Under the pieces are notes generated by a model. It made no database searches, was not told where the DNA came from, and was given only the letters and a program-made list of their open reading frames with translations. The translations under genes were made by a program, and so were the position numbers. A stretch of 64,000 nt of DNA from a virus. Numbering within the stretch: the first letter of the stretch is position 1; each line of letters begins with the position of its first letter. The DNA is taken from the IMG/VR virus record IMGVR_UViG_3300042359_000853, positions 124,001-188,000 of that record; one strand, 5' to 3'. Shown piece by piece: positions 29,222 through 62,441 of the stretch.

Positions 29222-29518
29222 ATGAGAGAAGAAGCCATCCACAAAAGTTGTCGTAGAACTATCCGCCAAAAATTTGAAGAGCTCAGAGTAGGTCAATTTA
29301 GTATTGATATACTAGCTCATTTTTTACAAAACAAATCTAAAAAACTTCGTGATATTGAACGGGAAACACCTTACAAAAAGATTTATTTAGAAGAAGCACA
29401 AAGAATGATTTCGCTTGTCCATAAAGCTAAACGAGTATCTAAAACATTTAATATTCGTAGTAATGACCATAAAAAGAGGTGGAAACTTCTAGATATTTTA
29501 GAAAGATTAGAAAAATAA
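29222..29518 (+). CDS. Small basic hypothetical protein
   Basis: A 98-residue Lys/Arg-rich helical protein, 5 bp after the ABC exporter stop and probably co-transcribed. No motif is recognised. Its net positive charge could suit nucleic-acid binding. Confidence 0.5.
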   Translation: MREEAIHKSCRRTIRQKFEELRVGQFSIDILAHFLQNKSKKLRDIERETPYKKIYLEEAQRMISLVHKAKRVSKTFNIRSNDHKKRWKLLDILERLEK

Positions 29519-29566
29519 TATATAGTTAGACTACATGGCCAGTAGATATAAAAAAATTCAGTCATT

Positions 29567-29737
29567 ATGAATACAATCAACAAAGAGCAGTTTATGGGTC
29601 TAATCAGACACGCGCTCACATTCGTAGGTGGTGTCTTGGTTATGCGTGGAGATCTCGACGCAGTAGGTCAAGAGCAACTTATCGGTTCAGTGATGACCCT
29701 AGCCGGACTTGTCTGGTCTTACTGGGTGAAAAGATAA
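29567..29737 (+). CDS. Holin-like small membrane protein (Pam3-gp28-like)
   Basis: A 56-residue ORF: MNTINKEQFMGLIRHALTF, then VGGVLVMRGDLDA, a short polar helix, and LAGLVWSYWVKR at the end. The pattern (RHxLT, GGxL, then a hydrophobic helix ending in WS-W/Y before basic residues) resembles the small Pam3-gp28 family of putative phage holins: two short hydrophobic segments with a polar link. It is followed by a good terminator. Codon usage is slightly richer in GC than its neighbours. Confidence 0.6.
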   Translation: MNTINKEQFMGLIRHALTFVGGVLVMRGDLDAVGQEQLIGSVMTLAGLVWSYWVKR

Positions 29738-29756
29738 AGAAAATCTTTCAAGTTAC

Positions 29757-29790
29757 TAAAGACCTACACAAAAAATGTAGGTCTTTTTTT
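29757..29790 (+). terminator. Rho-independent terminator after holin-like gene
   Basis: GACCTACA and TGTAGGTC pair around CAAAAAA, followed by seven T. Confidence 0.8.
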
Positions 29791-29816
29791 ATACATACAA
29801 AAAAATAGAATATTTA

Positions 29817-31940
29817 ATGAGACCAAGATCTATTGACGAAGTATGGCGGCAAATGCAAGTAGAAAAGCAACTACAAGAGCAGAGAAGATTCGAACAAGAA
29901 AGAAAAATGTGGGAACAAAGAGAAAGGCAAAGACAAGAATATCTCTTATCCATAAAAATGAATGAGAAGCTAGCACCGACAGTTCCTACTTCAGCAGCTG
30001 CTTCTGCTGGAGGAACAGTTCAGACGATTCAAGATCAAGACTTTCCTACTCTTTTTGGTGAAACACACATGATCACTTGGGCTGATGTATCAACAGATAC
30101 TTGGAAATACATCGTTCATAACTTCAATACTGGTGAGCTTTCTGAAATATTTGATACAGAATTGATATACGATAGTGGCAACGAATGGTATCTTTATGAT
30201 GAATGGCTGGCGGTTTCTGAAAAGGGGCATTCTGTTGTTTTCAGAAAGTCAGGAACCAATTTATATAAGATTTATTTTTTCAACGTAAATGGAGAACTCG
30301 TTGGTCAAAAAGATCTAGAAAGTCGCAAAGATTTTCAATATACCGAAAACGCACAGATATATGTGGGAGATTTGAACGGTCTAGGCACTGTTTATCATTT
30401 TGATGGTGATAATGTAAGAACTCATACGTTTGAGGGTCTGAGTGCATCTTCTATCGAAGTTGATGATTTTGGTGAAGATGATGTAACAAAAGATGGTAGC
30501 GTCATAATTGAGGCGCCAGATAATAGTAAAACATTCATAGCCAGGCCTAGTGGTGAGTTAGTAGAGATAACCTCTGATATCCAAGGTGCAAATCAAGTTT
30601 TATTAGATTATAACACAGATTTTTTATTTGCAGTAGATCAAGATCTTTGGGTAAAGTCGATTTCACAAGGGGGAGAGCTAAAAAATACGATGGATTTATC
30701 ACCTTATAATATAGAGAATTGGAATGAGATTTCTCTGTATGGTGATAACTGTGCTTACGTGCTTCTCACTTCGTATGATAGCTACAGAATGCTTGTTTCT
30801 TATGATGGTGATTCTAATCAGTTTGTTTCTATTACTTTTTCTGATTCTCTGATATATGATATCAGCTATCACGAAAGAAGCTGGCAATCGCCAAGACCTT
30901 ACTTCGGTAAAACTTTGATACTGACTACCTATCAGAGTAGAGCAGATAACTATATAAGTGGATTTGAGGGTTCAGGAGTAGAAATCAGTTGGTTACTGAA
31001 AAGTGCAGATGAATTTCAATCCTATATGTTTAGTGGAACTGTTTCATTTTTTGAAAGTGGTGGCAACTGGGTTGGTGATCGAACTTTTGCTATAGGTGAA
31101 AATCCAATGGTTATGTTCGCATACACACAAAGTGTTATTCAGGCAGGGTTTCTTCTATCTTCTGGATTTTTCACACAATCAACAGGCGTTACCTTGTCTC
31201 TCTGCTCAAATATTTGGGGAAAACCGATTGGCGATCATTCGTTTGCTGTTTTTGATGTTTTGGATGATAGAGTTTGGCAGGTCTATGATCAAAACTCTAT
31301 TGTTTCACAAACATCTTCTAGTTCTGCTTGGTCGTGGGGAACTAGTAACTGGGATGTCAATCGTTATGGAACACTTTTAGTTTTAGGTGGTGGTGGTAAT
31401 AATTTTGCTTACACAACAGAAATTGGATTGACTTCGGCACCAAGTGATATAAATATTATTTATAATAATGTGAATTGGGGCGACAGAACTGGTATTTCTA
31501 CTGAATATCAAATAGGCGTTCGTTATATTCCAGGTCAAGAGGGAAATGCTTACGTAGCTGGATTTTATGTTTTATCTAGGTCTGGTTTTTCTTCTTATGA
31601 AGAGTTCCCCTTTACTGGTCTTTCTCCTAGTATCCCACACACAATTTCTGGGATTGAAATAGGAACCGAAATTGTTTCTTTTAATTTGATAAATCAGGAT
31701 AATTCGAACTTAAGATGTATTGTTTATGACCTTTCTACACTTGGATTAATTGATGATTATGATACCGAACAATCTACCGATGTTTATATCCAATCTTGGA
31801 AAAACAGAGTAGCTGTTATTAAACAAAATGCTAATGAAAGACAGATTAAATTCATAGGAAAACACGGAATACAAACAAAAAAGGTTGATGCGAATAGTTT
31901 TTCAGATGAATCCAACGATCCAAGAGACAATGATGATTAA
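29817..31940 (+). CDS. Large putative virion protein, coiled-coil N-terminus and beta repeats
   Basis: A 707-residue protein. Residues 10-55 are a Glu/Gln/Arg-rich coiled coil (VEKQLQEQRRFEQERKMW). An Ala/Ser/Gly-rich linker follows (PTSAAASAGG, near 62-72). The rest is beta-rich with WxxxxxDxWxYIVHNFNTGE-type strands at roughly regular spacing, reminiscent of a beta-propeller. There is no signal peptide. The shape (trimerising coil plus repetitive beta domain) fits a tail fibre or surface protein, but no family is recognised. It starts 26 bp after a terminator. Confidence 0.5.
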   Translation: MRPRSIDEVWRQMQVEKQLQEQRRFEQERKMWEQRERQRQEYLLSIKMNEKLAPTVPTSAAASAGGTVQTIQDQDFPTLFGETHMITWADVSTDTWKYIVHNFNTGELSEIFDTELIYDSGNEWYLYDEWLAVSEKGHSVVFRKSGTNLYKIYFFNVNGELVGQKDLESRKDFQYTENAQIYVGDLNGLGTVYHFDGDNVRTHTFEGLSASSIEVDDFGEDDVTKDGSVIIEAPDNSKTFIARPSGELVEITSDIQGANQVLLDYNTDFLFAVDQDLWVKSISQGGELKNTMDLSPYNIENWNEISLYGDNCAYVLLTSYDSYRMLVSYDGDSNQFVSITFSDSLIYDISYHERSWQSPRPYFGKTLILTTYQSRADNYISGFEGSGVEISWLLKSADEFQSYMFSGTVSFFESGGNWVGDRTFAIGENPMVMFAYTQSVIQAGFLLSSGFFTQSTGVTLSLCSNIWGKPIGDHSFAVFDVLDDRVWQVYDQNSIVSQTSSSSAWSWGTSNWDVNRYGTLLVLGGGGNNFAYTTEIGLTSAPSDINIIYNNVNWGDRTGISTEYQIGVRYIPGQEGNAYVAGFYVLSRSGFSSYEEFPFTGLSPSIPHTISGIEIGTEIVSFNLINQDNSNLRCIVYDLSTLGLIDDYDTEQSTDVYIQSWKNRVAVIKQNANERQIKFIGKHGIQTKKVDANSFSDESNDPRDNDD

Positions 31941-32665
31941 GGAGTCGCTACCCCTTTTTTAGAAACTACTAGAGCAGACATTTCGTTGGCAAATCCAATC
32001 GATGATATAACATCTCCTGTTTTTAGATATTCTATAGAAAAACTAGCTAAAAAAGTATCACCTGCGCCTGAAACATCGATAGTTTCTAGAGGGTTCTTTT
32101 GAGGAAATATAACACCTCTATACCTACTGCCACGAGAGCCTAGTGTTATAATCAGGTTATTATCATCTAGATGTTTGTTGATATCTCTTTCACTATCGTT
32201 TAGCTTAATAAAGGTGAATAGACTAGCTAGTTGCTGATCTAACTTTTTCTTTGTATCAAGTATAGATATCTTAGAACTTCTAGCTATAAGCTCTAGAATT
32301 TGGGAATTCAGAAATCCCTTATTGTAATCAGAAACTATCACTAGATCGAAAGTTGATAAATCTGGTAAGTTTTCAAGAGTCTTACAGGGATTATTTTCAC
32401 CTTCATCAATTCTCAAAAACATATGGTTTGATTTTTTATCAACATATCTTGTCTTAGTAATCAAATCTTCTTGATGTAGGGAAAAAATATCAACTTCTTT
32501 ACTCAATGCTTCTAAATTTTTAGCAACATTTCCGGCCATTCCTGGATTTTCTATGATCTCTACCGGTTTTACAACTGGAACAGGCGCCTCTGGTGATAAT
32601 CTTGATGATGAGCAGTAGATAAATCTATCCAAACAAATCTCACCAATCACTGCTATTTTCTTCAC
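31937..32665 (-). CDS. hldE: PfkB-family heptose-7-phosphate kinase (HldE N-domain/RfaE1 type)
   Basis: A 242-residue ribokinase-fold enzyme. It opens with IAVIGEICLDRFIYC, followed by SRLSPEAPVPVVK, the signature of D-glycero-D-manno-heptose-7-phosphate kinases (HldE/RfaE domain 1), then NPGMAGNVAKNL. The ATP/anion-hole motif DVSGAGDTFLA near residue 200 carries the catalytic Asp. It is shorter than E. coli HldE domain 1 (about 318) and lacks the nucleotidyltransferase half. With the HldD-type epimerase at 41665 it suggests ADP-heptose synthesis. It overlaps the adhesin-like gene end (4 bp) and the 32640 gene (26 bp). Confidence 0.8.
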   Translation of the reverse strand: MKKIAVIGEICLDRFIYCSSSRLSPEAPVPVVKPVEIIENPGMAGNVAKNLEALSKEVDIFSLHQEDLITKTRYVDKKSNHMFLRIDEGENNPCKTLENLPDLSTFDLVIVSDYNKGFLNSQILELIARSSKISILDTKKKLDQQLASLFTFIKLNDSERDINKHLDDNNLIITLGSRGSRYRGVIFPQKNPLETIDVSGAGDTFLASFSIEYLKTGDVISSIGFANEMSALVVSKKGVATP

Positions 32666-32921
32666 CTAAAATATAGTTTATTTTTTTATCTCTAAACTTC
32701 TTTTTACCATTTTTTATAGGTAGAATATAATGATTCCAACTTTGGAGAGATATCCAGTTAGATTTTGATACATCTATTTTTTCACCTTTACAAAATATCT
32801 GAAACTTATTATCATTGCTGCTACTTAAAATAATATCATGACCTTGAGGTAGAGTAACATCTCTATCACCATCTCTAAAGGTAACATCTCTCCAAACATG
32901 ATAGTAGCTGGTGTGATCCAT
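32640..32921 (-). CDS. Hypothetical protein
   Basis: A 93-residue protein with many aromatic and Lys residues, beta-rich, of unknown function. It overlaps the kinase gene start by 26 bp and follows the 32923 gene by 1 bp, so it is part of one transcript running from the gp52-type topoisomerase gene. Confidence 0.45.
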   Translation of the reverse strand: MDHTSYYHVWRDVTFRDGDRDVTLPQGHDIILSSSNDNKFQIFCKGEKIDVSKSNWISLQSWNHYILPIKNGKKKFRDKKINYILGEENSSDW

Positions 32922-32922
32922 A

Positions 32923-33216
32923 TTATTCTTCTATTATTTTAGAGATTTGTTTATCTCTTGTATAGCTCGTGAACCAATCTAAACGAATACATCTTTTATC
33001 ATTATCTAAACGAAAGATATGACCTTCTCTCGATCCAGTCTCGATGATTGATATTGTTTCTGGTTTTGCGTCTGAGAGTTTAATCCAATTCATCCAATCT
33101 AAATTAACAAAATCAAATTTTTGACCCTTTTTCAGAGGAATCTCTAGAAAAGCTCTTGGATCGATTGTTGGAAACGAAAGAGTAAAATCTTCAAGTGCTA
33201 TATAAGTAATCGTCAT
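32923..33216 (-). CDS. Hypothetical protein
   Basis: A 97-residue beta-rich protein of unknown function. It is packed 1 bp from each neighbour (topoisomerase subunit upstream, 32640 gene downstream), so it is in an operon with them. Confidence 0.45.
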   Translation of the reverse strand: MTITYIALEDFTLSFPTIDPRAFLEIPLKKGQKFDFVNLDWMNWIKLSDAKPETISIIETGSREGHIFRLDNDKRCIRLDWFTSYTRDKQISKIIEE

Positions 33217-33217
33217 T

Positions 33218-34570
33218 CTAAATCTCTGATAAAAGTTTTTTTAGTTTTTGTAAATCTTGTAAATATAGAGATTTTATTTCTTTTTGAGATAAAGTTTTTA
33301 GCTCTTCTTTCTTATCTTCTAGGTCTTTCAATATCTTTTCGTAGATCTCTTTTACTAGAGATGAAATAGGCATACGAAGTAGATATTCGTAAGAAGAATC
33401 AACTTTTGTGAAATTTAGTTCTTGAAGTCTTTGTGTTAGGTCTTTTTTTGGAATATTCATCACTAAGATTTCTTTTTCAATAACACCTTTAATAAATCTA
33501 GCCCGGTTGGATAGAATTAAAATTTCCTGTTCAAGATTTTTTATCAATAAATCTTTTCTTTTTTGATAAAATTGAAGTCTGAAATTTGTAAAATAATCAA
33601 GAATCTGTGTATCTGACTCAAAGACTTTCAGTTTTCCGAACTCATCAAGAGTAGTAAAGATCTCTGTAGAGTATTCCTCAAGTTTTAGAAGTTTGATGAT
33701 TTGCTCATCATCAAGAGTTCCCATAACTGATTTATCCCACCTCACCGTATAGTTGATGTCTTCTTTGCAGTTATCATCCCAAGAAGAGATAATACCACGA
33801 GCTTGAAGATCATCCAAAACTTCTTCGTATTTTTCCCAGGTAAACGAGGGTGGTATTTCTAAAATTTGAGTTGAAATTTTATTGATGTTCTTGAAGACAC
33901 CACGAATAATCCATCTTTTATCGTTGGCTGCGTCAGGTATAAACTCACCACGAAAACCAGCAATTTGTGGTATGAGTTTTTTTGGACTCTTACCACCTAG
34001 TATATCAATAACAGAATTAACAACATCTAAAGGATTTCTATTTAAGATATTCGATGAGAATCCAACCGCAATACCTGAGCCACCGTTTATTAAAATAGTC
34101 GGAACTATAGGTAAGAAATATTTAGGCTCTATTTGTTGGCCTTCTTCCCAGAGGTATTCAAGTAGCTCTTCATCTTTATACAGATGAAAAAATATCGAAG
34201 AAAGTTTAGTAGCTATGTATCTTGGAGCAGAAGCCTCAGGAGCTCTAAGTGATCCAAACTGACCATGCTCTTCTAAAAGAGGTAGATTATTCTTAAACTT
34301 TTGAGCCATTTGAGTGATAGCTCCATCTAGTGATGATGAACCGTGATGATAGAAGCTTTCAGAGGAAACTTTTCCTGAAAGTTGAAAGATTTTGAGTGGT
34401 TTGGCAGATGGTGTTTTCCAAATGGAAGAAGCTGTGTGAATAATCTTTCTTGCTACCGGTTTAAATCCATCAACAACCGACGCGATAGCTCTATTTTCAA
34501 TAGAATATAGAGCGAAAGCTTTGTATTCATTATCTAGAAATTGAGAGATTGTTTTTTGTCCAGGTTTCAA
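33218..34570 (-). CDS. 52: DNA topoisomerase II medium subunit (T4 gp52/GyrA type)
   Basis: A 450-residue cleavage-reunion subunit (T4 gp52 has 441). The N-terminal winged-helix region carries AIASVVDGFKPVARKIIH, and the catalytic tyrosine is Y118 in EASAPRYIATKL, with R117 before it. The ILINGGSGIAVGFSSNI block follows. The C-terminal coiled arm (about 340-440) is Lys/Glu-rich. It lacks the GyrA beta-pinwheel, as in T4. With the gp39-type subunit at 34845 it would form the phage topoisomerase used in replication. Confidence 0.9.
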   Translation of the reverse strand: MKPGQKTISQFLDNEYKAFALYSIENRAIASVVDGFKPVARKIIHTASSIWKTPSAKPLKIFQLSGKVSSESFYHHGSSSLDGAITQMAQKFKNNLPLLEEHGQFGSLRAPEASAPRYIATKLSSIFFHLYKDEELLEYLWEEGQQIEPKYFLPIVPTILINGGSGIAVGFSSNILNRNPLDVVNSVIDILGGKSPKKLIPQIAGFRGEFIPDAANDKRWIIRGVFKNINKISTQILEIPPSFTWEKYEEVLDDLQARGIISSWDDNCKEDINYTVRWDKSVMGTLDDEQIIKLLKLEEYSTEIFTTLDEFGKLKVFESDTQILDYFTNFRLQFYQKRKDLLIKNLEQEILILSNRARFIKGVIEKEILVMNIPKKDLTQRLQELNFTKVDSSYEYLLRMPISSLVKEIYEKILKDLEDKKEELKTLSQKEIKSLYLQDLQKLKKLLSEI

Positions 34571-34619
34571 GAAGTTTTTTCTTTTGGTATGAGTAAGTTC
34601 GTAAAAAGTTGTAAATAGA

Positions 34620-34814
34620 TTAGATCTGCTCTAACCATTCACTGAATCTTAAAACCTTCCTCTCTGATACCTTTTGTGGAAGTTCTCTGTAATCTACGTC
34701 AGTCCATTCCTTATCGAAAACCCAGTGGTATTTCTTGGGAGCTTTCTTTTTAGAACCCCACTTATTTCTAAGAGCCCAGATAAGTTTATATTGTTTTTTT
34801 GATGTTGCTGGCAT
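34620..34814 (-). CDS. Small basic protein with FSEWLEQI C-terminus
   Basis: A 64-residue basic protein. The opening MPATSKKQYKLIWALRNKWG resembles small phage proteins that start MPAxSKxQ. The C-terminus VLRFSEWLEQI carries an aromatic-x-x-Phe/Trp-Leu-Glu pattern like the capsid-targeting motif seen elsewhere here, but at the wrong end. It shares a TATATATA box with the divergent gp39-type gene. Confidence 0.45.
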   Translation of the reverse strand: MPATSKKQYKLIWALRNKWGSKKKAPKKYHWVFDKEWTDVDYRELPQKVSERKVLRFSEWLEQI

Positions 34815-34832
34815 GACTTATTGTTTTTTTGG

Positions 34833-34840
34833 TATATATA
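34833..34840. promoter_or_regulatory. TATATATA box between divergent genes
   Basis: It ends 4 nt before the ATG of the gp39-type gene (34845) and lies 18 nt before the 34814 start on the other strand. Confidence 0.55.
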
Positions 34841-34844
34841 AAAT

Positions 34845-36701
34845 ATGGCAAAAGAAAAAAAGATAGAAGAAAAGTATGTTGTCCTTGATCATATAGAGCA
34901 CATACTACTTAGACCACAAACCTACATCGGAGCAAATAAACCACATACTCAAAAAAGATGGATACCCCAGGGATCCAAGATGATACAAGAGGAACTCACT
35001 TATGTTCCGAGTTTTCTAAAAATATTTGATGAGATTATCTCAAACTCAGTTGATGAAAGTAAAAGAAATAAAAAACTTAACCGAATAGATGTAAATATTG
35101 ATAAAAAGACCGGCGAAATATCAGTTTCTGATAACGGTGGAATACCGGTGGTCATTCATAAAACTCATAATCAAATGGTTCCCGAGGTTATTTTTGGAAA
35201 TCTTATGTCTGGCTCAAACTACGATGATACAGAAGAAAGAGTAGTGATGGGTCTCAATGGATTAGGATCGAAACTCACCAACGTTTTTTCTAAAAAGTTT
35301 GTAGTTCAAACCTGTGATGGTAAAAATGGATTTCTTCAAGTTTTTTCCCAGAATATGAGAGAAAGAACACAACCCACTATAACAAAAGGAGGCACACCAG
35401 GAACGAAGATCACTTATCTTCCTGATCTAGATAGGTTTGGTCTAAAAAAACTCGATACAGCTCATTACAATCTATTACATAAACGAGTGGTTGATATTGC
35501 TGGATGTAATCCATCAGTCAAGATTTTTTTCTGTGGTAGTGAAATCAAATGTAAATCTTTCGAGGATTATGTAAGGTGGTATCGTCAAGATTATTACTAC
35601 GAAAAATCAACCGACGGTCTTTGGTCAGTGGCTGTTGCTCCTTCTAGTGAAGGTTTTTCCCAGGTAAGTTTTGTCAATGGATCAGACACTTATGATGGTG
35701 GATCACATGTTGATTATATAACAAGTGGTATTATTCAACCACTCAGAGATTACTTCATGAAAAAATTCAAAGTAGATGTAAAACCTTCAGAGATCAAAAA
35801 TCACTTTCAGATTTTTCTTTCTTCAACAATTGTGAATCCTAGTTTTTCCTCTCAAACAAAAGAAAAACTTATTACTGAACCTAAAGATTGGGGTTATACT
35901 TTTACTATTTCACCTAAAATGATAGGTTGGATACTAAGATCCGAAATTGTAAAATCTATATCTGATTGGATCATTCAGAAAAAAGCAGCTGATCAAAATA
36001 AAATGCAACGACAGCTCAATAAACAAGTTGATAATCTTAAAGTTGAAAAGTTAGTTGATGCCAAGGCTAAAGATAGATGGAGGTGTTCGCTCGGTATTTT
36101 TGAGGGAGATTCGGCTAGTAACTCGTTTAGAAAATACAGAGATCCACAAACACAAGGATCTTTTTCTCTCAAAGGTAAGTTTATAAATGTAAGCGATTTA
36201 GCTCTTCAGAAAATGACTGATAATAAAGAGCTTGTAAATCTTATGTCAGCTATTGGCCTAAAACTTGGGCAAAAAGCAACCTTGAAAACCTTGAGATGGG
36301 GTCGTATTATATTCTACGCCGATCAAGACCCCGATGGTAACTCTATTGTAGCTCTTCTTCTGAACTTTTTCTATAAGTTTTGGCCTGAACTTTTTGATAT
36401 GAACTTCGTTTTCAAAGCAGAGACACCTCTCATGGTTGTGAAATCATCGAAACTTACAGAAGATCTATGGTTCTATTCTATGCAAGAGTTTGATAAATGG
36501 TCTGGTGGCAAAAGCTTGAAAGATTATACGATTACCTATAAAAAAGGACTTGGTGCTCTCGAAGATGATGAATATAAGAAGATTATAAAAACACCCAACT
36601 TAGTTAAAATTTCAAGTGATGAACTTTCTACTAAAAAACTAGATATTTGGTTTGGAAAAAACTCAGCTCTTAGAAAAGAGGAGTTATTTGATGTGGTTTG
36701 A
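34845..36701 (+). CDS. 39: DNA topoisomerase II large subunit (T4 gp39/GyrB type)
   Basis: A 618-residue ATPase/TOPRIM subunit. It opens with HILLRPQTYIGAN. The GHKL ATPase has SVDESKRN, SVSDNGGIPV and MGLNGLGSKLTNVF. The TOPRIM metal site is formed by FEGDSASNSF near residue 425 and YADQDPDGNS near 490. In T4 these functions are split over gp39 and gp60; here one chain holds both. It ends overlapping the convergent methyltransferase gene by 18 bp. Confidence 0.9.
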   Translation: MAKEKKIEEKYVVLDHIEHILLRPQTYIGANKPHTQKRWIPQGSKMIQEELTYVPSFLKIFDEIISNSVDESKRNKKLNRIDVNIDKKTGEISVSDNGGIPVVIHKTHNQMVPEVIFGNLMSGSNYDDTEERVVMGLNGLGSKLTNVFSKKFVVQTCDGKNGFLQVFSQNMRERTQPTITKGGTPGTKITYLPDLDRFGLKKLDTAHYNLLHKRVVDIAGCNPSVKIFFCGSEIKCKSFEDYVRWYRQDYYYEKSTDGLWSVAVAPSSEGFSQVSFVNGSDTYDGGSHVDYITSGIIQPLRDYFMKKFKVDVKPSEIKNHFQIFLSSTIVNPSFSSQTKEKLITEPKDWGYTFTISPKMIGWILRSEIVKSISDWIIQKKAADQNKMQRQLNKQVDNLKVEKLVDAKAKDRWRCSLGIFEGDSASNSFRKYRDPQTQGSFSLKGKFINVSDLALQKMTDNKELVNLMSAIGLKLGQKATLKTLRWGRIIFYADQDPDGNSIVALLLNFFYKFWPELFDMNFVFKAETPLMVVKSSKLTEDLWFYSMQEFDKWSGGKSLKDYTITYKKGLGALEDDEYKKIIKTPNLVKISSDELSTKKLDIWFGKNSALRKEELFDVV

Positions 36702-37592
36702 TCCAAGTAAGTAGTTACTAGAATCTCCGGCAAAGAGTGTAGTATAACCTAGTTTCTCTTCTAGGAATGTTTTAGTTTGACCGGTAAAATCTTCAATCCA
36801 AATGTGTGGTCTATGATTCACGATAGTATTTATAGATCCTCTAATAAGTTCTAACTCGTGACCTTCTACATCTATTTTCATAAAAGAAATATTATCAAAA
36901 CCAAAATCATCCAAAATTGAGCTCTGAACAAGCTCACCACTTTCGGATATAGCAGTTGAACCCCTATTCCATGATGCTGGATTTTCCATAAATAAAGTTC
37001 CTCTTTTAGAAGAGAGAGCGGTCTTGAATGTATGAATATTTTTTATTTTTTTCGTGTTTGTTAGAAGAAGTTCGTAATTTGCGCTACTTGGTTCAAAAGA
37101 ATAGATATTACTTTCTGGAAAATATTTATGAAACATCAAGCTATGATTTCCAATATTGGCACCACAATCTATAATGTTTTTAATATTATTCAGATATGGT
37201 AGAAATTGAAAGAAAAGATCAGATTCCCAAAATTTATTGAATTTTACGATATACTCAGAAATCAAATCGCCGGCATGTAACGTCAAATCGAATGATTCTA
37301 AACGAAAAGTTTTTTTATTTTTATCCTCTTCAAAATAAATTGCCTCTTCTAGTAGGATATTTCCCTCAGAAACAATACTGACAAAAACACCCTCTATTTT
37401 TGTATTTTCAAATATTTCTTTATTGAGATTAATTTCAACATTCCCGTTAGTAGGTATCCAGATCCATCCAGAATAAAATAGATCAATTTTATTCAGATTA
37501 AATACCGTAATATCTGAAGTAATAGGTTGGGTATTTATATTGTTAATTATAAGTTTGTGATTGATATAGTCTATTGTTGTTAGAAGTATCAT
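36684..37592 (-). CDS. FkbM-type SAM methyltransferase
   Basis: A 302-residue protein. Residues about 130-290 are an FkbM-family methyltransferase: IIDCGANIGNHSLMF (SAM loop), IYSFEPSSANYELL (acidic loop), then FMKIDVEGHELELIRG, the family hallmark. Residues 1-120 form an extra beta-rich domain of unknown role. FkbM enzymes O-methylate sugars of surface polysaccharides and glycoproteins. It converges on the gp39-type gene and fits with the heptose and glycosyltransferase genes of this window. Confidence 0.85.
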   Translation of the reverse strand: MILLTTIDYINHKLIINNINTQPITSDITVFNLNKIDLFYSGWIWIPTNGNVEINLNKEIFENTKIEGVFVSIVSEGNILLEEAIYFEEDKNKKTFRLESFDLTLHAGDLISEYIVKFNKFWESDLFFQFLPYLNNIKNIIDCGANIGNHSLMFHKYFPESNIYSFEPSSANYELLLTNTKKIKNIHTFKTALSSKRGTLFMENPASWNRGSTAISESGELVQSSILDDFGFDNISFMKIDVEGHELELIRGSINTIVNHRPHIWIEDFTGQTKTFLEEKLGYTTLFAGDSSNYLLGSNHIK

Positions 37593-37645
37593 ATAAAAGG
37601 ATTGTTCGTAATTTAAGAATATTGGATTTAATATCTAGTTATTTT

Positions 37646-37653
37646 TATATATA
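37646..37653 (+). promoter_or_regulatory. TATATATA box before the ART-like gene
   Basis: TTTTTATATATA ends 8 nt before the ATG at 37662. Confidence 0.5.
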
Positions 37654-37661
37654 GGATTTAT

Positions 37662-39773
37662 ATGTTTATTATAGAAAAGGTCTCTAAATTTCTAGAAAAT
37701 ATAGAATATTATTCACAGGATATGCTAAAAGATTTTTATTCTAAATCTTCTGATATTAATACAATTGGATCTTTTGAACTGTATAGAAAATATCTTTCTA
37801 CTATATTTGAAGATTTTCGTATTGAATATCGTGGAGATATCTCGGGACTAGAGGAATTTAGATATTCTAATTCTGTTATTGATAGAGATGGAAAATCAGA
37901 TGTTCGTCATAAAATGGGTTCAGGGGTTTATACCACACCCAATCTTTATCAAGCTCAACAATATGCAGATCAGGTTTTGGGTAAAATATATTTTGTTTTA
38001 ATCAATCAAACCGATGAACTTAGATATTCATCAAAACTTTATTTTTATAGAGATGTCGCTAGTTTTGTAGGGAACCCGAATAGACCACCAAATGGATTTG
38101 ATATAGATAGATTTACAAGACACATGCAAAAACTTGGTAGATCTATTCATGTGAAAAAAATATCAACACAAGATGAAACCGTTCACCCTGTAGAAAATAC
38201 CTGGATACTTGGATCTAAAAAAGATATTTTAGGATTTTCTAGGTTTCTCGATAGTCAAACTCAAAACTTGATTGAAAGAAATATTACTTTTAATGATCTT
38301 GATAAAACAAGCTCGGGTCAAAAAAGAGGTGACATTTTGCTCGGTAAAATAGTTCGAGGTGAAGAAATACCACTCAAACCCGAAGGTGAATCAGGAGTTG
38401 TAATCAAAAGAATTTCAGATATTATCAATAAGAACACCCAAGATATAACTTCAAGAAATTTAATAGCTCCTAAATATACACCCTATGATTCTGTAAAGAT
38501 GAGAGATGTGTTCCTAAAAAGACCAGATTATAAAAAATATACGAATAGTCTAAGGGCCGAAGATGGTGAAGAATATAAATTGAACGATATTGTAAAAACT
38601 TCGGATTTTGGATCTTCCGGTGGAAGTTCATTGGGAACAGAATCTACAATTAAAGTTGAAAGTATTTATTGTTTTTATTTTGCTATTCGACAATTTTTAA
38701 ATAGAGATATTTCAATAACTGATGATATTTCCTACTTTCTTACTTCACCTTCTGTTTTGGATTTTATCAAAACACCTATTCAAGTTACACAAGAAATGCT
38801 GGATAGATTTAGTCAATGGGAAAGTAGTTTTATAGAAACCGTGAATGGTATTAACAGAACAGATAAATACCTTGTTAAAGATAGAAAAAACAATAGTGTT
38901 CTTGATAGTAATAAAAAATATTCCTTTCATCAAATAAACTCTAGAGATGATCTTATTACTTCGTTATCAGACAAATACCGTAGTTTCAATTTAGGTATTC
39001 CAATATCTAAATGGACACCTTCCGATATTTGGTCAGTTGATGTAGAAAGAAAGGATCATATTATTGGTCTTATTAGGGCCTGTAGATCACTCCAAGATCT
39101 CAATAGAATTGTAAATAATTCATTTGATAGATCTGAACTTGTTGGAATTTCTATTAAAAAAATTAAAAGTGGCCAAAATAACTTTAAGATCATTATCAAT
39201 AATGAATCCCCTAAGCCACAATACACTTTCTCGAAAGTCATCATACTTGATAATCCTTTAGAAACACTTAACACTACAATTGTTGTAAATAGAAAATCCG
39301 AAGTATATGGTGATGGTGAAGAGAAAATTGATTTTAGAACCTACGACTCGAATATAAGAAATATAGTAGGAGAAGTTCAGGGTAGTGAAGCTAAATTTGG
39401 AAAAATATCACTAGGTCAAATCAATAAAATGTTGAAAGATTTAGAGATTGGAGAAGTTCCGAACTACGTCGAATTGATGAATCTCGATGAAAAAGATTTA
39501 AGGGAAAAAATTCTAGATATAAATAATAAAATTCTACAAAATTCATCACTCAGTGACTATATTAGGATAAGTAGAGTTCGTTCTGATTCAAAACCTCAGA
39601 CAAAAAGAAGACTTATATCTAAATATCAAGGTCTTTTCCTAGTTTCTACTCTATTAGACAAGTTGTTGGTTAGTAAAGAATCTGTGGATAATGTTCTTCA
39701 AAAAATATTCTATTACGCTCTTGCTATTGAAAATCAAGAATATGAATGCCCTAAATACATTCGTATTATATGA
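37662..39773 (+). CDS. Putative ADP-ribosyltransferase-like protein, Alt-sized
   Basis: A 703-residue protein. Residues 50-110 carry a pattern seen in ADP-ribosyltransferase folds: FRIEYRGDISG (Arg), then GSGVYTTPNLYQAQQYADQ, where a YTT segment precedes an A-x-x-YA helix, then GKIYFVLI. I could not identify the third (ExE) motif with certainty. The N-terminus (MFIIEKVSKFLENIEYYS) weakly resembles a capsid-targeting peptide. T4 Alt, a packaged and injected ART, has a similar size (682). The remaining 500 residues are unrecognised. It ends in a strong terminator. Confidence 0.45.
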   Translation: MFIIEKVSKFLENIEYYSQDMLKDFYSKSSDINTIGSFELYRKYLSTIFEDFRIEYRGDISGLEEFRYSNSVIDRDGKSDVRHKMGSGVYTTPNLYQAQQYADQVLGKIYFVLINQTDELRYSSKLYFYRDVASFVGNPNRPPNGFDIDRFTRHMQKLGRSIHVKKISTQDETVHPVENTWILGSKKDILGFSRFLDSQTQNLIERNITFNDLDKTSSGQKRGDILLGKIVRGEEIPLKPEGESGVVIKRISDIINKNTQDITSRNLIAPKYTPYDSVKMRDVFLKRPDYKKYTNSLRAEDGEEYKLNDIVKTSDFGSSGGSSLGTESTIKVESIYCFYFAIRQFLNRDISITDDISYFLTSPSVLDFIKTPIQVTQEMLDRFSQWESSFIETVNGINRTDKYLVKDRKNNSVLDSNKKYSFHQINSRDDLITSLSDKYRSFNLGIPISKWTPSDIWSVDVERKDHIIGLIRACRSLQDLNRIVNNSFDRSELVGISIKKIKSGQNNFKIIINNESPKPQYTFSKVIILDNPLETLNTTIVVNRKSEVYGDGEEKIDFRTYDSNIRNIVGEVQGSEAKFGKISLGQINKMLKDLEIGEVPNYVELMNLDEKDLREKILDINNKILQNSSLSDYIRISRVRSDSKPQTKRRLISKYQGLFLVSTLLDKLLVSKESVDNVLQKIFYYALAIENQEYECPKYIRII

Positions 39774-39801
39774 AAAAACCCAGATTTCTCTGGGTTTTTT
39801 T
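39773..39801. terminator. Bidirectional Rho-independent terminator
   Basis: CCCAG and CTGGG pair around ATTTCT inside flanking A6 and T7 runs, between the convergent ART-like and tail-tube genes. Confidence 0.85.
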
Positions 39802-39825
39802 GTGCTGAAAAATAAAAAAAAGTAA

Positions 39826-40452
39826 TTAAGAAACATAAACTTGTGGTGGTTGAATAGTAAATCCACCGTCAATATACTCATCAATGAAGTAATCCCAAAC
39901 AAAAGTAGCATCGATACTGTTGATGATACCTGGTGTTGCCCAATCAAAATCAGCATAAGTCAAAGTTTGAAGTTGGCAATTTTGGTAAGTTACTCTTCTA
40001 AGCACATATCCTTTTTTATCATGTTGATTAACAATTATTGTTCCGATAAGATCAGATTTATAATGAAGAGAACCGTTTTGAGAGTTCCAAGCTAGATCAT
40101 ACCAAGCTTTGAGTGTAGTGAAGGTTTCCATATTCAATTGCTCATTAACATTCACGTTGAATGGAATTGTGATTGTTCCAGAGGTTGTTTGTGGAGTATT
40201 CAAAAATTCACGAGTTGAGTATTTAAATCTTTGCGTTGAGTTTTGAAGGTTTCTAGTGAGCTGTGTTTGATTTATCGGAGCTTTAAGACCTTGTTGAAGA
40301 AGAAGAACTGGATCTCTTCCTTGTGCTTGTAAAATTACCGGTAGAAGAAAAGTAATCTCAAAGAGATTGGTATATACCGGTTCTTGTGGCTTGGTTCCAG
40401 GACCACCCGGAGAACCAGTCATATAAAGTTGTGTGAAATGTGGTAGAGGCAT
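39826..40452 (-). CDS. 19: Tail tube protein (T4 gp19 type)
   Basis: A 208-residue protein with the T4 gp19/phage tail tube layout: an N-terminal LFEITFLLP strand, a middle QRFKYSTREFLN and GTITIPFNVN, then a FTTLKAWYDLAWNSQNGSLH segment followed by IIVNQHDKKGYVLRRVTYQNCQLQT and a final INSIDATFVWDYF, the usual order of tube-domain strands. It would polymerise into the inner tail tube. A Pro/Gly-rich N-terminus (SPGGPGTKP) is an addition. It has a TATATA box 21 nt upstream. Confidence 0.75.
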   Translation of the reverse strand: MPLPHFTQLYMTGSPGGPGTKPQEPVYTNLFEITFLLPVILQAQGRDPVLLLQQGLKAPINQTQLTRNLQNSTQRFKYSTREFLNTPQTTSGTITIPFNVNVNEQLNMETFTTLKAWYDLAWNSQNGSLHYKSDLIGTIIVNQHDKKGYVLRRVTYQNCQLQTLTYADFDWATPGIINSIDATFVWDYFIDEYIDGGFTIQPPQVYVS

Positions 40453-40472
40453 ATTTCTAAAGTTTTTTTTAG

Positions 40473-40482
40473 TTATATATTA
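40473..40482 (-). promoter_or_regulatory. TATATA late-type box of the tail tube gene
   Basis: Minus strand TTTAATATATAACT, about 21 nt before the ATG at 40452. Confidence 0.5.
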
Positions 40483-40536
40483 AAGTTTTTTTTTCTCTAT
40501 TCCTAACATTTTCATAAAAAATATTATAATTAGATT

Positions 40537-41661
40537 ATGAGTAAAATATTTTTAGTAGGTGATATACACCTAGGTATGGGTTGGCCTAATAGTTATACTA
40601 AATGGTCAAAGGTCCATCAAGATTATTTTTCCGATTTTCTATTTCCACTTCTTGAAAGTCAGTTAAGTAGCCAAGATATTATTGTATTACTTGGTGATTT
40701 TTTTGATAATCGTGAAGTGATACCTATAGATACCTTAAATTATGGAAAAAGTGTTATAGAAAGATTATCTCGGTTAGCTCCAACACACATCATCGTTGGA
40801 AATCACGATCTTTGGACTAGAAGTTCATCCGAGATCAATTCAGTCAATATTTTTGGATGGATACCGAATGTTTCTATTTATCAAAAAACTTCCCAAATCC
40901 AATATAGAGATAAGAAGATTTGTATGATGCCCTATATTCACCATAAAGAAGAACAAATCAAAGAAATCGAAAAATTTAGAGATAGTAACTATTTATTTTG
41001 TCATTCAGATCTGAATGGATGTAAAATGCACTTAACATCGACAGCGCATAGAAACTCGGATAAAATTGATCTAGATGAGTTCAGGTCTTTTGAAAAAGTA
41101 AGATCAGGTCATATTCACATTCGTCAAGAGACAGGTATATTCAAGTTTGTTGGTTCTATTTTTCAAATGGATAGAGCTGATATGGGAGACCAGAAAGGTA
41201 TTTGGATTATTGATACTGATGATGATTCCGAGGTTTTCATCCCCAACACGAAATCTCCTATTTTCGAAAAGGTTTATGTTAAAACTCCTGAAGATGTTGA
41301 AGATTTATCTAACCTAAAAGATTCTAAAAACTGGATAGATCTCTATATCTCAAACTCACTTCTTATCAACAACAGAAAACTCAGAAGAAAGTTGGAGATT
41401 CTTTTAGAAACAATTAACTTTTTATCGGTAAGTTATATTGATGATATTCAAGTTTTAGAAAAATTAGAAGGTCAAAATGAGTCAGGAGTCTTGGACGAAG
41501 AGGTCATAGCAAGAGCTATCAATCTTGAACTCGAATATACAGAAGTTATTAAAAACTATATAGAAGAACAAAAGTGGGAATCAAAAAAGATCAAATCTGG
41601 TATTCTTACTGAGTTTGACGAAATTAGTAGAATATATCAAGATGGATTTCAAAAAAATTAA
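40537..41661 (+). CDS. 47: Mre11/SbcD-type nuclease subunit (T4 gp47)
   Basis: A 374-residue calcineurin-like phosphoesterase. Metal motifs in order: VGDIHLGMG, LLGDFFDNRE, IVGNHDLWT, FCHSDLNG and SGHIHIRQ. The length and C-terminal helical capping region fit T4 gp47 (339 residues), the partner of the gp46/SbcC ATPase, acting in end resection and recombination-dependent replication. The gp46 partner is not in the window. It is followed 3 bp later by the HldD-type gene. Confidence 0.85.
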   Translation: MSKIFLVGDIHLGMGWPNSYTKWSKVHQDYFSDFLFPLLESQLSSQDIIVLLGDFFDNREVIPIDTLNYGKSVIERLSRLAPTHIIVGNHDLWTRSSSEINSVNIFGWIPNVSIYQKTSQIQYRDKKICMMPYIHHKEEQIKEIEKFRDSNYLFCHSDLNGCKMHLTSTAHRNSDKIDLDEFRSFEKVRSGHIHIRQETGIFKFVGSIFQMDRADMGDQKGIWIIDTDDDSEVFIPNTKSPIFEKVYVKTPEDVEDLSNLKDSKNWIDLYISNSLLINNRKLRRKLEILLETINFLSVSYIDDIQVLEKLEGQNESGVLDEEVIARAINLELEYTEVIKNYIEEQKWESKKIKSGILTEFDEISRIYQDGFQKN

Positions 41662-41664
41662 ACT

Positions 41665-42471
41665 ATGATACTTGTTACTGGATACAAAGGATTTATTGGT
41701 AAAAACCTATTTGATAAACTCATACAACTCAACTACTCCATCACAGGTTTAGATAGTGAATATTTTCTAGAAGAAGATTGGCAAGGTTGGCTAAAAAAGT
41801 ACTTGAATGATAAATCACCAAGTTTCGTATTTCATGTAGGTGCGTGCTCCGATACACTAGAGACTGATGTAAATTATATGCTTACTAGAAACTATGAATC
41901 TACTAGAATCATTTCTTCTTGGTGCGAAAGAAACGGTGTGGGTTTGGTTTATTCTTCCTCGGCTGCTAACTATGGATCGACTGGTCATCTTCCTACAAAT
42001 CTTTATGGATGGAGTAAAAAAATAGCTGAAGATTTTGTATTATTAAAAGGTGGGGTTGCTCTTCGATATTTCAATGCCTTCGGACCTGGTGAAGAAGGTA
42101 AAGGTAAAATGGCTTCTGTAGCCTATCAATCATGGATTAGAAATAAAGTGGGTGAGAAGATTAAACTCTTTCCAGGCCGTCCAACTCGAGATTTTATCTA
42201 TATAAGAGATATTGTAGAGGCGAATATATCTGCTATGAAAAACTACAGATCTATTTTTGGTAATTACTATGATATAGGAACTGGAGTTTCATCACCATTT
42301 GAAGATGTTTTAGAAAATTTAGATATACCTTTCACCTATACCGATAGTCTAGAAATACCAAAAGGATATCAATTTTTCACACAAGCTAATTCATCGAAAT
42401 TTCTAAGAGGTTGGGAACCCAGATGGACTCTCTCAACTGCTCTAGCCGATTATAGAAAATATTTAGATTAA
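41665..42471 (+). CDS. hldD: ADP-heptose 6-epimerase-like SDR enzyme (HldD/RfaD type)
   Basis: A 268-residue extended SDR. The NAD(P) loop is VTGYKGFIG. The block FHVGACSDTLETDVNYMLTRNY is the HldD/RfaD signature (E. coli: GACSSTTE..YMM..N). SSSAANYGS gives the catalytic Ser region, and LYGWSKK the Tyr/Lys pair. RYFNAFGPGE and RDFIYIRDIV follow. It is somewhat shorter than E. coli HldD (310). It would convert ADP-D-glycero- to ADP-L-glycero-manno-heptose, matching the kinase at 31937. Confidence 0.8.
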   Translation: MILVTGYKGFIGKNLFDKLIQLNYSITGLDSEYFLEEDWQGWLKKYLNDKSPSFVFHVGACSDTLETDVNYMLTRNYESTRIISSWCERNGVGLVYSSSAANYGSTGHLPTNLYGWSKKIAEDFVLLKGGVALRYFNAFGPGEEGKGKMASVAYQSWIRNKVGEKIKLFPGRPTRDFIYIRDIVEANISAMKNYRSIFGNYYDIGTGVSSPFEDVLENLDIPFTYTDSLEIPKGYQFFTQANSSKFLRGWEPRWTLSTALADYRKYLD

Positions 42472-48753: not shown

Positions 48754-49103
48754 TGGTGGAGGTGCTGGGATTCGAACCCAGGTTTCTACATTTACCTAAA
48801 TAATCAATCATTCACAAGCTTAGAACTCTTTTCTAAGAGAACCAACTATCGGATTTTATCGAAGAACCTTCCGAAAAAACTTTTGAGGCTATTTATAGAG
48901 TTACCTCATTCTCGGAAACGTCTAGGCTACGGCCAATCTGTTTGCCTTTAGGATGTTGTTGCGTAGGGCGAATACTAAGTCTTCAACGCTTCCTACTTCA
49001 TTCGTGTTGCCACTTAAAGTTTTCATACAACTTATGAATCGGTGAGTATGATCCGATGCTTGCTTGATTACCCGAATAAATGAGTCAAAAGCCATTCACC
49101 CCC
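48754..49103 (-). ncRNA. ssrA: Transfer-messenger RNA (tmRNA)
   Basis: A 350-nt one-piece tmRNA with an encoded CCA end. The acceptor stem GGGGGTG pairs with CACCTCC and includes the G3-U70 wobble needed for alanine charging. The T-arm CTGGG-TTCGAAT-CCCAG and a TGGCTTTTGAC segment (tmRNA D-loop region) are present. P2 is supported by CATTTA/TAAATG, TAATCA/TGATTA and GCAAGC/GCTTGT pairing. The most likely tag frame ends in a TAG at 48924-48922 and reads ALRNNILKANRLAVA from a GCC at 48969, preceded by TATTC (compare E. coli TAGTC). The frame stays open further upstream. It would rescue stalled ribosomes. Confidence 0.92.
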
Positions 49104-53444: not shown

Positions 53445-54014
53445 ATGAAATATAAAGTAAGTGAATATGCTAAATTGAAAAACGTTACCTACCGAACCGT
53501 TTGGAACTGGATAAAATCAAATAAGATAGACTATCAAACTACAAACACCGGTGGTCTGGTTATAGTTGAAGAAGATCCCAATTCAAATAAAGAGGTAGCA
53601 GTTTATGCTCGTGTTTCTTCATCAGAGAATAAAGATAATCTAGAAAGACAGAAAAATAGATTATTGGACTATTGTGCTTCTAGAGGATATAAAGTTTCTA
53701 GTATAGTAACAGAGATTGGATCTGGATTGAACGATAAAAGACCAAAATTAGAAAAAATTCTAACAAATAGATCTATAAGTATAATTGTAGTTGAACATCG
53801 GGATAGATTATCAAGATTTGGATTTAATTATATAGAAAAACTATTAAATTCAAATGATAGAAGGATAGAGGTAATAAATGAGCCTCTTAATGAAAAAGAA
53901 GATTTAATACAAGACTTTGTATCTATAATTACTAGTTTTACCGCTAGATTGTATGGACAAAGAAGAAGTAAAAGAAGAACCGAATTTCTTATAAAAAATC
54001 TACAAAGTGAATGA
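53445..54014 (+). CDS. tnpA: IS607-type serine recombinase (TnpA)
   Basis: A 189-residue transposase. Residues 1-45 form a MerR-like helix-turn-helix (VSEYAKLKNVTYRTVWNWIK). The catalytic domain has VAVYARVSSSENKDNLERQ with catalytic S58, then IIVVEHRDRLSRFG with the resolvase arginines, and a final long helix (SIITSFTARLYGQRRSKRR). The order HTH-catalytic is diagnostic of IS607. It appears intact. Confidence 0.92.
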   Translation: MKYKVSEYAKLKNVTYRTVWNWIKSNKIDYQTTNTGGLVIVEEDPNSNKEVAVYARVSSSENKDNLERQKNRLLDYCASRGYKVSSIVTEIGSGLNDKRPKLEKILTNRSISIIVVEHRDRLSRFGFNYIEKLLNSNDRRIEVINEPLNEKEDLIQDFVSIITSFTARLYGQRRSKRRTEFLIKNLQSE

Positions 54015-55180
54015 TCCTAGTTGAAAAGCACATAATTAGATCAGGTAAATATTTCAATCAACTAATGGAAGTTACTAGATTGAGTAAAAATCTTTATAAT
54101 TCTGGTTTGTATGCTGTGAGGCAGCACTATTTTGAATACAAGAAGTTCTTAAATTATGTAAATCTTAATAATATGTTTGTTGAACAGAAACAACAAGATT
54201 ATTACAAACTACCAGCAAAGGTTAGCCAACAAACACTGAAAATGGTGGAACAAAATTTCAAATCATTTTTTGGATTACTAAAATCTGAAAAAACTAAAAA
54301 GGTAAAAATACCTAAATATCTGGATAAAAATTCCAGTTTTTTAACAATTTGGACAAATCAAGCAGTTTCTCTCAAAAAGAAGGGTTACTTAAAGCTATCA
54401 GGAACTGATGTCTATATCAAAACAGATATTGATCATATCAATCAAGTTAGAGTTGTTCCTAGAAATAATGAGTTAGTAGTAGAGATATTATATGAAGTCC
54501 GGGAAAATGATTTAAAGAAAGATAACGGAAAATATTCATCTATAGATCTTGGCATCAATAATCTCATGACTTTATCGGGAAACACAACAAAACCTATTAT
54601 AGTCAATGGGAAACCACTAAAATCTATTAATCAGTATTACAACAAGAAAAAATCCGAAATTCAGGGTAAATTAGAAACAATCAACAAAACAAAAAAGAGC
54701 AAAAAATTAAATAAACTAACAAACAAAAGAAACAACAAAATAAATGATTATCTACACAAATCAAGTAAAATAATTATCAATCATTTAGTTTCCAAAGATA
54801 TATGTACTTTAATAGTTGGATACAATCAATACTGGAAACAAGAGATAAATATTGGAAAAAAGAATAATCAGAATTTTGTTTCAATTCCCTATCTAAAATT
54901 ATTAAATATGTTAGAATACAAATGTAAAAAAGAAGGCATTAACTTTGTCAAAAACGAGGAGAGTTATACATCCAAGTGCTCGTTTATAGATGGTGAGGAA
55001 ATTAAAAAACATACAAAATATTTAGGTAAAAGAATAAAAAGAGGATTATTCGAGAGCGCGTCTGGTAAATTGATAAATGCGGATTTGAATGGATCTCTAA
55101 ATATTCTCAAAAAAGTAGTTGGGGAATTTCAGTACCCAATAGAGGTGTGTAGCACGCCAAAAGTTATTAATTTAGCTTAG
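54011..55180 (+). CDS. tnpB: TnpB RNA-guided nuclease (no canonical zinc finger)
   Basis: A 389-residue TnpB. RuvC-I is in YSSIDLGINNLMTL (Asp), the central region has LIVGYNQYWKQEINIG, and RuvC-III is KLINADLNGSLNI (Asp). The usual CxxC...CxxC zinc ribbon between them is replaced by ESYTSKCSFIDGEEIKKHTK and LGKRIKRGLFESASG, as in a known TnpB subgroup. The N-terminal helical/WED region looks complete, so it is likely active. The guide RNA would overlap the gene 3' end and right end (about 55050-55215). Confidence 0.9.
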   Translation: MILVEKHIIRSGKYFNQLMEVTRLSKNLYNSGLYAVRQHYFEYKKFLNYVNLNNMFVEQKQQDYYKLPAKVSQQTLKMVEQNFKSFFGLLKSEKTKKVKIPKYLDKNSSFLTIWTNQAVSLKKKGYLKLSGTDVYIKTDIDHINQVRVVPRNNELVVEILYEVRENDLKKDNGKYSSIDLGINNLMTLSGNTTKPIIVNGKPLKSINQYYNKKKSEIQGKLETINKTKKSKKLNKLTNKRNNKINDYLHKSSKIIINHLVSKDICTLIVGYNQYWKQEINIGKKNNQNFVSIPYLKLLNMLEYKCKKEGINFVKNEESYTSKCSFIDGEEIKKHTKYLGKRIKRGLFESASGKLINADLNGSLNILKKVVGEFQYPIEVCSTPKVINLA

Positions 55181-61934: not shown

Positions 61935-62441
61935 ATGTTAAACCAAAAACCTACTAACACACAGAAATACCATCAAGGATTGTATATTCCACAGAATCGT
62001 GATAAACTCATTAAAGCTAACAACGAAGGTGGCGTCTATTATAGAAGTGGTCTTGAGAAAAAAATGATGATCTATCTAGATCTTAATGATAAAATTTCAA
62101 GGTGGTGCTCAGAATATATTAAAATACCTTATGAGAAAACCGAATGGAGTTCTGTAAGAAAAGATTTTGAGACAACCCAACATACTTATTATCCTGATTT
62201 TTACTATGAACTTTATAAATCAGACGGTAGTCTTTCTAAAGTTGTAGCAGAGGTTAAACCACGCTCAGAAACAATTGAGCCAGTAATCAAGGAAAACATG
62301 ACCTCGAAACAGATAAGAAATCTCGAATACAGCTTAAAAACATATAATAAAAACCTACAAAAGTGGAAGTATATGATAGAATATTGTCAGAGAAAAGGGT
62401 TCGAGTTCATTATTATCACCGAAGAACATTTAGGAAATTGA
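61935..62441 (+). CDS. 4: Head completion protein (T4 gp4 type)
   Basis: A 168-residue protein. Segments GVYYRSGLEKKMMIYLDLND, SRWCSEYIKIPYEK, HTYYPDFYYELY and VVAEVKPRSE match the gp4/gp50 head completion family, which has a TnsA-like PD-(D/E)XK nuclease fold (E in LEKK, D in YPDFY, E-V-K in AEVKPR). It acts after DNA packaging to finish heads. It is divergent from the 61915 gene and overlaps the convergent endonuclease gene by 12 bp. Confidence 0.82.
   Translation: MLNQKPTNTQKYHQGLYIPQNRDKLIKANNEGGVYYRSGLEKKMMIYLDLNDKISRWCSEYIKIPYEKTEWSSVRKDFETTQHTYYPDFYYELYKSDGSLSKVVAEVKPRSETIEPVIKENMTSKQIRNLEYSLKTYNKNLQKWKYMIEYCQRKGFEFIIITEEHLGN

Follow-up and report, generated by a model that had tools for sequence, protein, structure and literature searches.

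A short HldE-type kinase and an HldD-type epimerase of a large phage may supply ADP-heptose for phage-encoded heptosylation

A 64,000-nucleotide stretch of viral DNA (the window, positions 124001-188000 of the 227,583-base virus record IMGVR_UViG_3300042359_000853, here G000) encodes a short heptose-7-phosphate kinase-like protein and an ADP-heptose 6-epimerase-like protein (Table 1). The reading that we favour, with some reserve, is that both genes encode enzymes of a phage-borne route which supplies ADP-heptose for phage-encoded heptosylation and leans on host enzymes. In this scheme a small HAD phosphatase encoded elsewhere in G000 would remove the 7-phosphate, the isomerase GmhA and the adenylyltransferase HldC would come from the host or from phage DNA outside the record, and the HldD-type enzyme of the window would convert ADP-D,D-heptose to ADP-L,D-heptose. 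The activated heptose would then be used by phage glycosyltransferases, foremost by a TibC/Aah-like domain encoded in the same genome, and the outcome would be protein O-heptosylation or the extension of a phage-made glycan. Substrates, donor, acceptor and biological purpose are given here as we infer them. The host is presumably a member of the Bacteroidota.

A first-pass annotation, made from the sequence alone, had proposed an HldE-type kinase domain and an HldD-type epimerase at these two sites and had named a grouping with ribokinase or galE as the phylogenetic outcome that would speak against it. Open reading frames (ORFs) are present at both sites, and both proteins fall with HldE/HldA and HldD instead. 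The kinase ORF starts with GTG and carries the SPEAPVPV motif at residues 24-31 and the GAGD motif at residues 200-203. Its best family is TIGR02198 (rfaE_dom_I, the HldE kinase domain; 5.6e-36, 124.3 bits), compared to 8e-11 for ribokinase, and it matches PHROG 8133, a family of unknown function, at 2.7e-70. The HldA protein of Burkholderia cenocepacia (4E84) is the sole sequence match in the PDB (2e-12). A quick IQ-TREE phylogeny of 95 kinases with E. coli RbsK, PfkB, KdgK and FrlD as outgroup places the short kinases in a single clade adjoining standard HldE (SH-aLRT, the Shimodaira-Hasegawa-like approximate likelihood ratio test, 100), with the four outgroup kinases outside (95) and the window protein inside a viral clade (99). 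Both this tree and the epimerase tree have long outgroup branches, and their support values are SH-aLRT only, without bootstrap.

At the residue level the window kinase matches 41 of the 51 positions conserved in standard HldE, whereas the four other PfkB kinases match 20-25. All of R31, K106, R108, R118, D120, D151, Y152, K154, K179 and D264 (E. coli numbers) are present, while G52 and D76 are lost. The predicted structure (pLDDT, the predicted local distance difference test, 92) has the PfkB fold, and HldA was its best match by both aligners, with a Z score of 24.4 over 232 residues at 29% identity; the top seven Foldseek chains were all HldA. The protein stops after the kinase domain and has no C-terminal adenylyltransferase domain, hence it is not a bifunctional HldE. 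Placement among the ribokinases is ruled out by the tree and the residue checks. Sequence and predicted structure thus make the assignment to an HldE/HldA-like branch well supported as an enzyme class, and by its sequence the protein can be placed in a distinct short branch of the HldE-type kinases.

The best family of the epimerase is TIGR02197 (heptose_epim, HldD; 3.6e-48, 164.4 bits), the best unrelated family reaches 1e-11, and the best four PDB matches are HldD entries. With HldD (1EQ2, 4EJ0) it shares the nucleotide-binding motif, the GACS.T.E.D..YM block (motif GACSDTLETDVNYML, beginning at residue 59) and the YQ..T tail; it is shorter (268 vs. 310 residues). Its S99, Y114, K118 and K146 correspond to S116, Y140, K144 and K178 of E. 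coli HldD, and K178 is an HldD-specific residue that is absent in GalE, RmlB, Gmd and Fcl. Two phage HldD lineages were resolved in the epimerase tree, the window type (SH-aLRT 100) and the cyanophage type (99). The window-type clade lies on the HldD side, apart from GalE, RmlB, Gmd, Fcl and RmlD (98). Tree and residues rule out placement with GalE, and the assignment to an HldD-like enzyme class is well supported as judged from sequence.

The short kinase was found in at least 592 viral stretches and also, at 35-45% identity, in 31 records of cyanophages or marine viruses. The branch, with a deletion described below, is common to hundreds of viral contigs, cyanophages and Patescibacteria. In cyanophages (P-SSM2, S-SSM7, S-SM2, S-CAM3, P-TIM68) it belongs to the module T4-GC303-308, annotated as a nucleotidyltransferase (T4-GC304), the kinase (GC305), GC306, a cupin (GC307) and the epimerase (GC308). 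GC304 is HldC (TIGR02199, 1.3e-30 for the P-SSM2 protein). The window phage shares the homologous kinase, an HldD-like epimerase and the HAD protein with this module; in contrast to it, its HldD is of a different lineage and it has a TibC-like transferase in addition. Of the 80 best viral kinase loci, 51 have HldC in the vicinity, 48 the cupin, 43 an epimerase and 34 the HAD protein. Window-type HldD directly adjoins the kinase in many relatives, several of them with HldC, which bears out the link to the ADP-heptose pathway drawn in the first-pass annotation.

The short kinases from genome collections group into a single Patescibacteria clade (SH-aLRT 99) nested among viral clades. Several of these contigs carry the kinase at most 6 kb from a SIS-type GmhA and HldC, and some also HldD or GmhB. 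This context ties the short-kinase branch to heptose metabolism independently of phages. The nesting of the Patescibacteria contigs (L120-L154) among viral sequences suggests exchange between phages and Patescibacteria. Three loci with a phage-type module (L153, L137, L128), filed as metagenome-assembled genomes of Bifidobacterium, Thaumarchaeota and Cytophagaceae, are probably phage contigs mis-binned with cellular genomes. In one phage record (L115 in G037, 251 kb) the kinase frame is broken by stop codons while HldD is kept, reflecting either decay or an assembly error.

A probable consumer of activated heptose is encoded in G000 outside the window. The C-terminal domain of the protein matches TIGR04414, the family of the Aah/TibC autotransporter O-heptosyltransferases (BAHT), at 3.6e-56 (190.7 bits), and its PDB matches are TibC entries only (6e-33). 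Work on TibC (4RAP, 4RB4) assigns the role of candidate base to D110 and donor binding to T226, K230, R286 and W305; activity requires an iron bound by four cysteines, and stereoselectivity is determined by residue 300. AAH, with Ser at this position, accepts both ADP-D,D- and ADP-L,D-heptose (PMC4358343). The phage domain retains D110, T226, K230 and W305 together with the iron-finger cysteines C339, C342, C358 and C370, and has Ser at position 300 like AAH. A GT4-like part, in place of a beta-barrel, precedes it in the fused protein, and no autotransporter partner is known. Candidate acceptors for O-glycosylation are present as well: five large proteins of G000 have Thr/Pro-rich, mucin-like repeats with up to 73% T+P over 120 residues, and two carry W..G.F repeats.

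The TibC-like gene stands in contiguous same-strand runs with the kinase, in part with the cupin and HldC between them, in L207, L209, L210, L312, L035 and the record of L073. For its prevalence, 39 viral records with kinase or epimerase were compared with 47 controls, mostly picked via the unrelated gene PhoH. TIGR04414 was detected in 16 of the former (14 above the cut-off) and in 7 of the latter (Fisher p 0.008), corresponding to 4.0 vs. 1.2 per Mb; one of the positive controls, L312, itself has kinase, cupin and TibC-like gene consecutively. Because these record sets are biased to relatives of the window phage, to which the controls are also partly related, the association of the TibC-like gene with the module can be called firm at the level of operons but no more than suggestive as regards prevalence, which takes some weight from our interpretation.

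The first-pass annotation had placed both enzymes in the synthesis of the lipopolysaccharide (LPS) core. Along this line the phage would merely raise the host pool of ADP-heptose, so that LPS core synthesis continues or LPS is altered against superinfection, with no heptosyl transfer of its own. Kinase and HldD are indeed the classical LPS-core precursor enzymes, and earlier papers file viral rfaE/hldE, gmhC, gmhD or heptose genes under LPS biosynthesis or auxiliary genes (PMC10653327, PMC7029224, PMC7378029). Cyanophages, however, have the module although cyanobacterial LPS is without heptose (PMC4390846). In a search for an LPS-type heptosyltransferase the sole Glyco_transf_9 signal of G000 was located inside the TibC-like domain, and no WaaC/WaaF-type enzyme was found in this record. 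For these two reasons the link to the host LPS core is weakened. Furthermore, the consumer resembles a protein O-heptosyltransferase rather than an LPS-core enzyme, and phage glycan clusters go with the module. We consider mere LPS boosting unlikely; the phage probably decorates proteins or surfaces with heptose rather than just feeding outer-membrane synthesis of its host.

That missing steps might lie elsewhere or be supplied by the host had also been anticipated, and a search of G000 for them was partly successful: besides the TibC/Aah-like transferase it revealed a GmhB candidate. This small HAD protein is a homologue of GC306, and its neighbours are a tandem NTP-transferase, a class II aldolase, FkbM methyltransferases and glycosyltransferases of families 2, 10 and 61. 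The cyanophage label 'phosphoheptose isomerase' for T4-GC306 (L002-L006) is a misannotation, as the protein carries the full set of HAD phosphatase motifs and finds its matches among capsule-biosynthesis phosphatases. Its sequence makes it a candidate for the GmhB step, not for that of GmhA.

Neither GmhA nor the C-terminal domain of HldE was recovered. Pfam, tblastn and profile searches of the 227.6-kb record, which is possibly partial, gave no HldC, cupin or SIS-type GmhA, and no PF01467, SIS_2, CTP_transf or HldC-like match. From the full ADP-heptose pathway (GmhA, HldA, GmhB, HldC, HldD) this record thus holds an HldA-like protein, an HldD-like protein and the HAD candidate only. G000 is linear without shared ends, and its terminase relatives comprise genomes of 464-642 kb as well as phages of about 220 kb, e.g. 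Sphingomonas phage PAU and Tenacibaculum phage PTm1. Given the linear ends and the size of the larger relatives the record is possibly incomplete, and the absence of HldC, cupin and GmhA is not final.

In relatives the isomerase step may be taken by the small cupin T4-GC307, which is co-located with the module and called 'cysteine dioxygenase' in the records. Cupin lyxose and mannose isomerases perform ketose-to-manno-aldose chemistry, the same as in the GmhA step. The module cupins have weak profile matches to D-lyxose isomerase (25 of 25 members) and mannose-6-phosphate isomerase (15 of 25). The fold match is unspecific (CapF, Pac13, KdgF, phosphomannose isomerase and lyxose isomerase all at Z 14-15.5), therefore the isomerase role stays hypothetical. 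Cupin and GmhA never occurred together in the short-kinase contigs examined from Patescibacteria and genome collections, and SIS_2 was found in none of the 38 viral records searched; one viral locus (L092) has the cupin plus a weak 30-bit GmhA match. Sequence data make the cupin a plausible but unproven replacement of GmhA. A bolder and quite tentative proposal is a widespread, self-standing phage operon for protein O-heptosylation, in which short kinase, HldC, HAD phosphatase (in the role of GmhB), HldD and a cupin in place of SIS-type GmhA would serve a TibC/Aah-like transferase acting on phage proteins (e.g. Thr/Pro-repeat or beta-helix fibre proteins); the window phage would then represent a host-assisted version.

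Several observations weigh against a supply of ADP-heptose for phage-encoded transfer. Apart from the missing HldC, cupin and GmhA, the scores of all three proteins lie below the curated cut-offs, with 124.3 bits vs. 345 (equivalog) for the kinase, 164.4 vs. 274.6 (equivalog) for the epimerase and 190.7 vs. 200 for the TibC-like domain. Since kinase and epimerase are so far under these values, automatic annotation would not name them. The interval between E. coli L63 and K106 comprises 18 residues in the short-kinase family instead of 44 in standard HldE, i.e. a common deletion of 26 residues, and the second Gly of the GG motif is Met in the window kinase and not Gly in any short kinase. R286 of TibC, which contacts the adenine, is Val in the window phage, and only 3 of 19 phage TibC homologues have Arg at this position; the donor may therefore differ. 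The four relevant genes are dispersed over G000 (at 29, 62, 156 and 166 kb), and no TibC-like gene was present near the cyanophage module loci examined.

Some of these points would also fit a drift of kinase and epimerase to another nucleotide sugar, e.g. another heptose, or a hexose or pentose made via the NTP-transferase and class II aldolase of the cluster at 57-64 kb. The low scores, the kinase deletion, the lost Arg286, the presence of this tandem and the lack of HldC in the record all agree with such a drift. On the other hand, HldE-specific and HldD-specific residues are retained, and relatives pair the short kinase with HldC, or in Patescibacteria with SIS-type GmhA and HldC, so that a different sugar appears improbable to us. 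A decayed pathway, which has lost HldC and the cupin and whose remaining kinase and HldD have ceased to contribute to ADP-heptose synthesis, would account for the 9 kb between two genes that are adjacent in many relatives, and for the lack of HldC and cupin. Nevertheless, neither ORF is disrupted and no catalytic residue is missing, the near-identical 110-kb record G025 (from L097) shows this arrangement intact as well, and in a related phage (L098) an HldD of 58% identity is retained at the corresponding site behind the SbcD-like gene. As the record may also be partial, we regard a relic as very unlikely. Phages making activated heptose for their own transferases is the most economical account of the data.

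Table 1 Features of G000 and of one cyanophage locus discussed in the text
Feature	Position	Strand	Remarks
TibC/Aah-like domain protein	G000 29271-31589	-	772 codons; domain at residues 446-766
IF-3	G000 35907-36437		144 bits
Glycan cluster	G000 56971-72474	-	outside the window; NTP-transferase, class II aldolase, uridine-kinase-like protein, GT2/GT10/GT61, FkbM methyltransferase
Small HAD phosphatase, GC306 homologue	G000 62142-62447		62% to S-SM2
SmpB	G000 76894-77343	+	174.6 bits, above curated cut-off
Thr/Pro-repeat protein	G000 78385-82359
Thr/Pro-repeat protein	G000 98049-100166
Thr/Pro-repeat protein	G000 116455-119787
Thr/Pro-repeat protein	window 7183-11112	+
Short HldE/HldA-type heptose-7-phosphate kinase-like protein	window 31937-32665	-	242 aa; phrog_8133 family; catalytic Asp203; 26-residue deletion vs. 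standard HldE
Small ORF, no family	window 32640-32921	-	93 aa; directly upstream of kinase
FkbM-type methyltransferase	window 36684-37592	-	between topoisomerase genes and HldD
HldD-type ADP-heptose 6-epimerase-like protein	window 41665-42471	+	268 aa; starts 3 bases after SbcD/gp47-like gene
tmRNA	window 48754-49103	-	Rfam 65.3 bits
Resolvase-like ORF overlapping TnpB-like ORF	window 53445-55180	+	putative
Thr/Pro-repeat protein	G000 222962-224689
Small cupin T4-GC307	L003 12047-12403

The interval 31937-42471 of the window is not one unit, as topoisomerase, methyltransferase and SbcD-like genes separate the kinase from the epimerase. The small ORF upstream of the kinase overlaps the kinase start by 26 bases and is probably co-translated with it. 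The methyltransferase of the interval is of a type common in glycan modification clusters. Additional features concern translation and mobile elements. The window contains a transfer-messenger RNA (tmRNA) with the tag GNTNEVGSVEDLVFALRNNILKANRLAVA; together with SmpB, encoded elsewhere in G000, it makes up a complete trans-translation pair, as known from huge phages (PMC7162821). The record also encodes the initiation factor IF-3. The overlapping resolvase-like and TnpB-like ORFs were recognized by eye and are arranged as in IS607-type elements.

Phages were already known to carry heptose genes, which have so far been classed as auxiliary genes for LPS; new here are the short-kinase operon and the connection with a TibC/Aah-like transferase, and a partial literature search yielded no paper linking phages with protein heptosylation. 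The candidate for a non-orthologous heptose isomerase and the misannotated phosphatase are by-products of this analysis. The occurrence of a TibC/Aah-like transferase in this genome, and its contiguity with the kinase gene in relatives, instead suggest that the phage directs heptosylation, possibly of virion proteins. If true, this would explain why cyanophages keep the module despite the heptose-free LPS of their hosts.

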